A stretch of 64,000 bases of DNA from Nocardia ninae NBRC 108245 (GTDB taxonomy: Bacteria > Actinomycetota > Actinomycetes > Mycobacteriales > Mycobacteriaceae): positions 62,001 through 126,000 of the forward strand of contig NZ_BJXA01000007.1 in assembly GCF_007990755.1 (NCBI RefSeq). The letters are read 5' to 3'. Under the pieces are notes generated by a model. That model saw only the letters and a list, made by a program, of their open reading frames with translations, was not told where the DNA came from and did not search any database. A program made the translations under genes and the position numbers. Positions 43,750 to 52,000 of the stretch are shown here, in pieces. Position 1 is the stretch's first letter. The number at the start of each line of letters is the position of its first letter.

Positions 43750-44087
43750 CTCAACCGCAGGTTCCCAACGTCACGGTCGCGGCCAGCACGAATCGGTCGG
43801 GCACCATCTCGGTGCGGGCCACCGATCAGGGCATGCCGGTGGAGATCAAGTTCGAGCGCAGCGAATACCGTTACGGCGCACAATCTCTCGCGAACGAGAT
43901 CCTGCGGCTCACCAAACGCTCCACCGTCGCCGCGAAGGCGCGCCGCCGCGAGCTGCTCGCCGAGGCAGGCATGCCCGCCGACATCCTGGACCGGCTCGGC
44001 CTGCCCACCCGCCAGGCAGCGGTGGACGAGCTGGACCGGATCGATGACGCGGACACCGGACCTACGACGTGGATGAGGCCTGTATGA
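43746..44087 (+). CDS. EspD-like (DUF2694) protein
   Basis: 113 aa, ATGA-coupled to the NlpC/P60 gene. The middle segment (VEIKFERSEYRYGAQSLANEILRLTKRS) matches the core pattern I recall from EspD: a short beta region followed by a helix with SLA(S/N)EIL. EspD stabilises EspA/EspC in M. tuberculosis; this one is shorter and lacks the acidic ends. Its stop overlaps the first codon of the 84-bp repeat element. Family call by eye. Confidence 0.6.
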   Translation: MTQPQVPNVTVAASTNRSGTISVRATDQGMPVEIKFERSEYRYGAQSLANEILRLTKRSTVAAKARRRELLAEAGMPADILDRLGLPTRQAAVDELDRIDDADTGPTTWMRPV

Positions 44088-44167
44088 GTGAGCGGAGCGA
44101 GCGAACAATGAGCACAGCTGCCCCGGCGCTCATGGCGGAGCCGAGCGCCAGCGAGGTGGAGGCATGA
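44084..44167 (+). repeat. 84-bp mini-ORF repeat, copy 1
   Basis: Encodes 27 aa beginning MSERSERT and ending SASEVEA. Its ATG overlaps the EspD-like stop (ATGA), and its TGA overlaps the ATG of the YbaB-like gene. It is 69/84 identical to copy 2 at 51489-51572 by hand count, with no gaps. The tail GAGGTGGAGGC supplies the ribosome-binding site of the next gene. Peptide identity is 19/27. Confidence 0.85.
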
Positions 44168-44511
44168 GTGCGGAAATGGACGCTCTGGTCGCCAATGCGA
44201 CGCAGAAGCTGGAAGCACTCGAGGCCGCGCTGTACGGCCTCAAGCAGGTGCGCGGGCGGCACACCACCGAGGACGGCACGGTCACCGTCGAGGTCGACAG
44301 CGACGGCGCGCTCGTCGGTTTGAGCCTCGCCGAGACGGTCACCTCGCTGCCGCCCGCCGAGGTCGGACAGCTGATCGTCTGGGCTTGCAGGCAGGCCGCC
44401 GAGGACGCGGGCAACCAGCGCTCGAAGGTCGTTGCGACACTGAACGAGTCATTCGTTCCCGGGGCGAACGACGCCCAAGGAACCGTTGGGGGCGGGCCGG
44501 ATAGTGCCTGA
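44164..44511 (+). CDS. YbaB/EbfC-family protein (EspL-like)
   Basis: 115 aa. An N-terminal helix (MDALVANATQKLEALEAALYGLKQVRG) is followed by a short beta sheet (VTVEVDSDGALVGLSL) and a second helix, the YbaB/EbfC layout. EspL of the ESX-1 locus belongs to this family and, as I recall, works with EspD, which fits the EspD-like neighbour. The start is ATGA-coupled to the 84-bp mini-ORF. A nucleoid role is possible, but the setting favours a secretion chaperone. Confidence 0.72.
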   Translation: MSAEMDALVANATQKLEALEAALYGLKQVRGRHTTEDGTVTVEVDSDGALVGLSLAETVTSLPPAEVGQLIVWACRQAAEDAGNQRSKVVATLNESFVPGANDAQGTVGGGPDSA

Positions 44512-51087: not shown

Positions 51088-51486
51088 ATGACCACGATAG
51101 AAGCTCCGGCACAGCCGAAGCGGAAGACGCTGTACCGAGGCGACCCTGGCATGTGGTCCTGGGCGCTGCACCGGATCACCGGTGTCACCATCTTCTTCTT
51201 CCTCTTCGTGCACGTCTTGGATACCGCGCTGGTCCGGGTCAGCCCGGACACCTACAACCGGGCCATCGAGACCTACAAGAGCCCCATCGTCGCGCTGATG
51301 GAAATGGGACTGGTCGTCTGCGTCCTGTTCCACGGATTCAACGGCGTCCGCGTGATCCTGATCGACTTCTGGGCCAAGGGCCCGAAGTACCAGCGCGTGA
51401 TGCTCTGGGTCGTTCTCGCGGTGGTGTTCGTGCTGGCCGCGCCCGCGATCGGGCGCATGTTCTTCTACTTGTTCACGGAGCACTGA
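51088..51486 (+). CDS. sdhC: Succinate dehydrogenase cytochrome b556 subunit
   Basis: 132 aa from ATG at 51088 (GGAGG 11 bases upstream). Three membrane spans at about 27-50, 66-85 and 105-125; WSWALHRITGV carries the Ser/Arg quinone region and HVLDTAL/LFHGFNGVR the candidate haem His residues. It anchors the complex and, with SdhD, forms the quinone site. It is separated from sdhD by the 84-bp mini-ORF repeat. Confidence 0.93.
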   Translation: MTTIEAPAQPKRKTLYRGDPGMWSWALHRITGVTIFFFLFVHVLDTALVRVSPDTYNRAIETYKSPIVALMEMGLVVCVLFHGFNGVRVILIDFWAKGPKYQRVMLWVVLAVVFVLAAPAIGRMFFYLFTEH

Positions 51487-51488
51487 CA

Positions 51489-51572
51489 ATGAGCGCGCGA
51501 AGCGAGCGAACAATTAACACAGCCGCCTGTGCGGTCATGCCGGCACCGAGCGTCAGCGAGGTAGAGGCATGA
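51489..51572 (+). repeat. 84-bp mini-ORF repeat, copy 2, inside the sdh operon
   Basis: Encodes 27 aa beginning MSARSERT and ending SVSEVEA. Its ATG is 2 bp after the sdhC stop and its TGA overlaps the sdhD ATG (ATGA). The length is exactly that of copy 1, with 15 base differences. The tail GAGGTAGAGGC is the sdhD ribosome site. It links translation of sdhC and sdhD. Confidence 0.85.
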
Positions 51573-52000
51573 GCGCACCTGTTCTCGGTAAGTCTTACGA
51601 CAGGCCGGCCAGCTTGGACTCGCCGCGCTCGCCACGTGCCCGCGCGAACAACAATTTCGAGAAGTACGCGTGGCTGTTCATGCGCTTCTCCGGCCTGCTG
51701 CTGATCATTCTGGTGCTCGGCCACATGTCGATCATGCTGCTGCTCGACGGCGGCGTGAAGCGGCTCAACTTCGGCTTCGTCGCCGGCCGCTGGGCCAGCC
51801 CGTTCTGGCAGCTGTGGGATCTGTCCATGCTCTGGCTGGCCCAGCTGCACGGCGGCAACGGCCTGCGCACGGTGATCGCGGACTACTCCCGCAAGGACTC
51901 GACTCGATTCTGGCTGAACACGCTGCTGGCCATCTCGATGATCCTGATCCTGGCCGTCGGCACCTACGTCATCTTCACCTTCGACCCCAACATCAGTTAG
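51569..52000 (+). CDS. sdhD: Succinate dehydrogenase membrane anchor subunit
   Basis: 143 aa. Three membrane spans (about 35-58, 80-98, 115-138). WLFMRFSGLLLIILVLGHMS holds a conserved Arg/Ser and a likely haem-binding His. The start is fixed by the ATGA overlap with the repeat mini-ORF and its GAGGTAGAGG. It partners SdhC; sdhA follows after 15 bp. Confidence 0.93.
   Translation: MSAPVLGKSYDRPASLDSPRSPRARANNNFEKYAWLFMRFSGLLLIILVLGHMSIMLLLDGGVKRLNFGFVAGRWASPFWQLWDLSMLWLAQLHGGNGLRTVIADYSRKDSTRFWLNTLLAISMILILAVGTYVIFTFDPNIS

Follow-up and report, generated by a model that had tools for sequence, protein, structure and literature searches.

MIRUs (mycobacterial interspersed repetitive units) are repeats of 46-101 bp that form the basis of a standard tuberculosis typing method. 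The relevant passages of PMC12548453 describe them as dispersed mini-ORFs that have been inserted at start codons and show -4 overlaps, and those of PMC4213456 give the senX3-regX3 units as 77 and 53 bp long and as confined to M. leprae and the M. tuberculosis complex. A statement in PMC4473831, citing Supply et al. 1997, holds that MIRUs have no dyad symmetries. Among the open-access papers listed there was none on hairpins in MIRUs, nor on MIRU-like elements in Nocardia or in Actinomycetes at large. Translational coupling is treated in PMC12548453 through RNA-unfolding and reinitiation models, in which ribosomes arriving from the upstream frame open an inhibitory stem that holds the downstream RBS and start. 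Two further systems are relevant: in its part on IS200/IS605 elements, PMC6006769 describes elements that are flanked on the left by a fixed tetranucleotide and finish on the right with a tetranucleotide of their own, with hairpins near the ends and base interactions between the tetranucleotides and nearby bases; its part on REPs presents these as largely intergenic, their hairpins having a GT[AG]G guide on the 5' side.

The window analysed here, a stretch of 64,000 nucleotides from Nocardia ninae NBRC 108245, holds two copies of an 84-nt element on the forward strand, copy 1 at 44084..44167 and copy 2 at 51489..51572. The original prediction had placed one 84-bp block at these two positions, with 69/84 bases identical and no gaps, and we found precisely this; its figure of 19/27 identical residues between the two mini-ORF peptides also held when counted by hand. 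Each block translates as exactly 27 codons followed by a stop (MSERSERTMSTAAPALMAEPSASEVEA in copy 1 and MSARSERTINTAACAVMPAPSVSEVEA in copy 2), again as predicted. Copy 1 begins inside the ATGA at 44084..44087, a left DTGA that contains both the upstream stop TGA and the mini-ORF's start ATG, while copy 2 begins 2 nt past the TGA (51484-51486) of the gene at 51090..51486 (+), which has no Pfam match at 0.01 and is assigned to the SdhC position by its place before SdhD- and SdhA-like genes. At its end each block shares an ATGA with the gene that follows, as had been claimed, and both carry a ribosome site in their last bases (GAGG, 7 nt ahead of the next gene's ATG). Behind copy 1 lies a gene of 115 aa (44164..44511, +) that is YbaB/EbfC-like (PF02575, E 2e-6) and whose ATG is the last DTG of the element; behind copy 2 lies the SdhD-like gene, an Sdh_cyt transmembrane subunit (51569..52000, +; PF01127). 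The label 'Esp-like' for the operon of copy 1 found no support in these searches: the frame upstream has no Pfam or NCBIfam match, and the downstream gene is the YbaB/EbfC-like one. GC-rich simple GAGCG tracts could resemble each other, so that the two copies might have arisen by chance or local gene conversion, but we give this practically no credence: the next-best ungapped 84-mer in the window, on either strand, reaches 43/84 matches, dozens of further matches exist in the genome, and the 80-bp difference to empty sites in relatives (see below) contradicts it.

We think it probable that the block is a small, non-autonomous, MIRU-like mobile element that inserts directly 3' of a host DTGA (where D stands for A, G or T) at start codons and couples its own translation to that of the gene. 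The copies elsewhere in the genome, on which the original prediction depended, are plentiful. BLAST with copy 1 gave 44 matches in the genome (9.70 Mb), copy 1 itself included. A covariance model (R1), built on 28 of the 30 loci returned by BLAST, with L017 (equal to L016) and the degenerate L020 excluded, gave 85 matches at E<0.01; two were partial and were dropped, leaving 83 full-length copies, the clean-ended ones being 57-87 nt long. Some copies form head-to-tail arrays in which neighbouring units overlap by the four bases of DTGA: three lie in this genome (G000:C45:5813-6056, locus L016; G000:C56:4620-4780, L027; G000:C10:38587-38959, L141) and one in genome G586 (L257), where units of 85 nt merge their mini-ORFs into a single open frame of 77 codons. 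Pairwise identity among the copies of this genome in alignment A2, which includes only one of two identical tandem copies, is at most 89%, which gives no sign of recent movement within the genome. By eye, remnants of about 20 bp (GTGAGCGAGGTGCAGGCATGA type) are seen just upstream of the element in L009 and L028; they resemble element copies deleted between GAGCGAG direct repeats, as perhaps does the window site in G010 (L230).

The mini-ORF is a general property of the copies. Their length is a multiple of 3 in 70/83, and among the 63 copies with DTGA at both ends (80 aligned matches minus 17 without DTGA at one end), the frame is open exactly to the final TGA in 57, which span eight lengths between 57 and 87 nt; when interiors of the right length are shuffled, 62% are open. 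Such openness, together with recurring SER and SASEV motifs, would also be expected of a genuine family of short protein genes of about 27 aa. However, several copies read their middle in another frame (VSERQR... versus VSERSER...) and return to the original frame before the end, and the copy-1 peptide has no NCBIfam match, which makes a protein family very improbable. Since the middle is read in different frames that are then restored, the open frame is conserved more than the peptide; this and the lengths in multiples of 3 speak for the adaptor reading.

The copies do not stand at random positions relative to genes, as the original prediction had required. In 53/61 clean-ended copies of this genome (taken from 72 rows read), the 3' DTG starts a coding frame, against 667/1902 control DTGA sites, so that the element's ORF overlaps the downstream gene in the same direction. 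Overlap at the 5' end occurs in about a third: an upstream stop overlaps the left DTGA in 21/61 copies, against 60/1902 control sites. A stop lies 1-60 nt upstream in a further 10/61, and 30/61 have no coding stop within 60 nt, thus many copies stand at the start of a first gene. By sequence, the host DTG becomes the first codon of an in-frame mini-ORF; an SD-like sequence and a second DTGA come with the element, the latter providing the gene's start with its DTG and ending the mini-ORF with its TGA.

The last 38 nt of the element fold as a hairpin of the form TCAHGCC...GGCDTGA, with the SD-like GAGG inside and the downstream start codon as its 3' arm. In copy 1 (44130..44167, TCATGGC...GGCATGA) the hairpin has one G.G mismatch and an RNA fold z-score of -1.7; in copy 2 (51535..51572) all 7/7 terminal pairs form, with an RNA MFE of -18.7 kcal/mol and a z-score of -4.0 when folded with one extra 5' base. 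Folded as DNA, copy 2 has a z-score of -2.6, and copy 1, at -0.2, is no better than shuffles; a search for perfect inverted repeats of at least 6 detected the stem of copy 2 and missed that of copy 1. The same type of search (perfect repeats, seeds of 6) found no inverted repeat linking the two termini in the window copies, and no Rfam family matched the window at gathering thresholds. None of 500 shuffles reached the hairpin's covariation score in the plain MAFFT alignment A1 (28 copies), and four further alignments (A2-A5), which were fitted to the model's structure, gave the same covariation result. In the own, genus, cross-genus and far sets, not only this score but also the percentage of standard pairs lay above all 500 shuffles, and the signal was lost on sliding the partner by 1-3 columns; in the far set the count of pairs with changes on both sides was unremarkable (91 of 500 shuffles). 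The input of A4 left out L190, L191, L193, L195, L203, L204, L196, L201, L202 and L206. The base pair that involves the start codon was UA in 33, CG in 32, AU in 1 and UG in 1 of 80 rows from this genome, with 9 unpaired and 4 gapped. All together, comparison of the copies shows that the 3' end of the element is a conserved, covarying hairpin with the start codon as its 3' arm. In many copies a sequence-variable third stem (CAGC...GNC) seems, by eye, to sit 5' of this hairpin, for example at 44115-44130.

Strong covariation, with an SD and a start codon inside the stem, and copies that are at most 89% identical in A2 are also what one would expect of a pure cis-regulatory RNA, that is, a structured leader or attenuator under selection gene by gene and no longer mobile. 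Comparison of orthologous sites argues against such a leader. At the sdhC-sdhD junction, 23 rows from the same genus (two further rows were set aside as other families) comprise 3 filled sites (G000, the present genome, G007 and G009), 19 empty ones and one unusable. The copy-1 site is readable in 21/24 genomes, and a recognisable element is present in four (G000, G008, G017 and G021). In nine genomes there is no element and the upstream frame meets the DTGA directly (the frame is partly supported for eight and judged by eye for G011), and four have a short spacer. Four other congeners, G003 (L227), G013 (L218), G014 (L228) and G019 (L220), carry different mini-ORFs of 45-78 nt with the same closing overlap. 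These mini-ORFs, which precede the YbaB-like gene, do not visibly resemble the element and are possibly decayed copies or other adaptors. The form found in G000 is the empty form, in which the ATGA is already present, plus 80 bp after that ATGA, a net insertion of 80 bp for an element of 84 nt. Besides this patchiness, the genes downstream of the copies are unrelated, and the copy number in 36 genomes of the genus, the present one included, ranges from 0 (in four genomes) to at least 78, the top values being lower bounds since 77 candidates were scored per genome. We therefore regard a purely cis-regulatory RNA as improbable, and patchy presence at orthologous sites suggests mobility. Dozens of dispersed copies, empty sites in congeners and in-frame positions at start codons favour what the original prediction had put forward, a translational adaptor that is mobile and not a gene for a protein. 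It had allowed for an element that was either mobile or gene-converted: the dispersed copies and empty sites support the former, and the latter is not needed.

At both window loci and two further sites, relatives without the element show that the insertion lies at a start codon (a DTGA site). The unlike ends of the copies at the two further sites bear on the origin of each DTGA. The L132 copy has ATGA on its left and GTGA on its right, and the start codon is ATG in 9/9 assessable relatives (12 of the 21 matched genomes were examined; 2 match only from farther inside the gene and one is the present genome). The L014 copy has GTGA on its left and ATGA on its right; its nearest relative, G008, listed as 100% identical over 200 aa, has GTG, and the other 15 relatives examined have GTG in 5, TTG in 3 and ATG in 7 cases (17 of the 31 matched genomes were examined, the present one included). 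G021 at the copy-1 site is a third site with unlike ends, where the start codons of relatives vary. By these comparisons the host contributes the left DTGA and the element the right one, clearly at L132 and by the closest relative at L014. With a right DTGA borne by the element, the gene's start codon was replaced upon insertion; the data thus indicate that insertion can alter the start codon of a gene. A simple 4-bp target duplication was set aside, because the unlike ends point to the right DTGA as the element's own.

The element is not confined to one genome or genus. With R1, 56/401 genomes of the family match at 1e-3 (11 candidates per genome were scored), and with a broader model (R2) 59/394 genomes of the class, from 21/137 genera, match at 1e-4. 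Among 22 far loci that were read, the length is a multiple of 3 in 20, the frame is open exactly to the end in 19 and 14 overlap an upstream stop. In a sister genus of the same family (g50), 30/198 genomes match at 1e-6; 27/28 of its loci are readable, and 26 of these 27 have a length of 69 nt and a frame that stays open to the end. Looser R1 matches were followed up in 15 chosen genomes of other genera, in which 28 loci were read. R1 matches in G302, G372, G418 and G216 (L190, L191, L193, L195, L203 and L204) were set aside as having another architecture. In genus g27 (L193 and L204 in G302; L191 in G372) a repeated hairpin, GCATCGCGTACCGAGCGCCAGCGAGGTCCGCGATGC, is seen that shares the CCGAGCGCCAGCGAGG core but is apparently not at a start codon.

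No vehicle of the phage or plasmid kind was found with the few, short queries used: BLAST with a window copy at E 0.01 gave no match in plasmids or phages, BLAST with two elements of far families gave no plasmid match and the exact element pattern occurred in 0 viral contigs. The Y1 transposase (PF01797, E<=1e-5) has no match in G000, G005, G008 and G009, the four copy-richest genomes, and was thus rejected as the present mobiliser in the genome studied here; PF01797 matches were found in 6/36 genomes of the genus, each with 4 to 12 copies of the element.

The first 23 nt of the element can also pair, as DT-GA-GC-GA-GC / GNA / GC-GA-GC-GA-AY (44084..44106 in copy 1 and 51489..51511 in copy 2). 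Tandem G.A pairs in this proposed left hairpin would hide the palindrome from Watson-Crick searches. Some copies have standard pairs in place of G.A: L183 (GTGAGCGAGCTTGCGAGCTCAC) and L198 (ATGAGCGAGCTTGCGAGCTCAT) in genome G050, and L026 in the present genome, with C-G and T-A at two positions. In three alignments the covariation score and the percentage of paired positions of the left hairpin lay above all 500 shuffles, largely through the terminal pair; the count of further pair types was unremarkable (26, 69 and 500 of 500 shuffles). The hairpin is weak in the window itself, where the terminal pair is A.C, not Watson-Crick, in both copies and the left end of copy 1 has no DNA fold under standard energies (0 kcal/mol).

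The terminal pairs of both hairpins were tabulated in 172 distinct clean-ended copies, those from other genomes being mostly each genome's best match and not a random sample (of 55 excluded rows, 13 were duplicates, 38 did not have DTGA at both ends, 3 were gapped and 1 had a mis-set start). The left D and its arm base were A-T in 79, A-C in 29, G-C in 51, G-T in 3 and others in 10; the arm base is C in 29/108 copies with an A as left D and T or C in the arm, and in 51/56 copies with a G. The right D and its arm base were A-T in 110, G-C in 51, T-A in 1 and others in 10. In the 27 copies with unlike ends, which are related and not independent, the left arm base fits the D of its own end in 20 and that of the opposite end in 4, and the right arm base fits its own D in 25 and the opposite one in 2. 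A tree test of independent compensatory changes found only 1 and 4 pairs on supported branches, too few to decide; on a tree of poor support, parsimony gave 17 and 29 changes. The rule that emerges from the data is a host DTGA on the left and an element DTGA on the right, each fitting the arm of its own hairpin.

A different route to the same arrangement is site-specific recombination, in which the element would move as double-stranded DNA and cross over within a shared TGA core, the mode of action of serine or IS110-type recombinases, the hairpins then serving translation only. A crossover in the TGA core would equally leave the left D from the host and the right D from the element, units in tandem arrays share DTGA, and the lack of Y1 matches in the copy-richest genomes is in line with it. 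The agreement of the left arm base with the left D, as seen with C opposite a left G and with 20 to 4 in the unlike-end copies, is not expected under this route, which we consider a serious but less likely rival.

Our favoured reading, a mobile translational adaptor acting by coupling, is the most likely one, the coupling being suggested by the anatomy of the element. Ribosomes loaded from the host's original signals would start at the left DTG and translate the mini-ORF, opening the right hairpin as they proceed; they would then terminate at the TGA of the overlap and start again from the DTG of the gene. We propose that coupling via the mini-ORF is the reason why insertion is tolerated and why the sequence of the peptide is largely irrelevant. 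More tentatively, the specificity of insertion may lie in pairing between each hairpin arm and the DTGA of its end. Should the hairpin act in the way we propose, the element is a ready-made, portable translational coupler. Start-codon hairpins, a start codon carried by the element, its wide spread and the MIRU precedent described in PMC12548453 all go beyond the original prediction.

A wider reading, possible rather than probable, is that these are mobile elements of a single-strand type found across the class: both hairpin ends would read DTGA by pairing, the elements would home into start codons and replace the host's start, and the built-in coupling hairpin and mini-ORF would keep them harmless. 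Classical MIRUs might then be a branch of these elements with unnoticed hairpins, masked by G.A pairs.

Compared by published description rather than by sequence, the element works like a MIRU. In both cases, going by what the passages cited say of MIRUs, short dispersed mini-ORF repeats stand at start codons with a -4 overlap and in the orientation of the neighbouring genes, with tandem copies, and the 77- and 53-bp units of senX3-regX3 correspond to the 81-nt and 57-nt forms of the Nocardia element minus the shared 4 nt. The element is not filed as a MIRU because MIRUs are stated in PMC4473831 to lack dyad symmetries, whereas it has a strongly covarying right hairpin and a weaker left one. 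Moreover, its family occurs in many genera, in contrast to the range that PMC4213456 gives for the senX3-regX3 MIRUs; MIRU-type repeats are thus now visible in many actinobacterial genera. With IS200/IS605 elements, as the section cited from PMC6006769 presents them, it shares a host tetranucleotide on the left, its own on the right, hairpins near both ends and interactions of the tetranucleotides with bases close by. However, the guide is not found 5' of each hairpin foot: the right partner is 5' but lies in the stem, as does the element's tetranucleotide, and the covarying base on the left is 3' of the hairpin; a Y1 transposase match is also lacking in its own genome and in the high-copy G005, G008 and G009. 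REPs (TnpA-REP/RAYT) are likewise short multi-copy hairpin elements, but differ, judging from the same part of PMC6006769, in that the Nocardia element has an ORF, an orientation set by the gene and a location at start codons. A further parallel is the stem with RBS and start codon in the coupling models outlined in PMC12548453; in the Nocardia element, the coupling module itself appears to be mobile.
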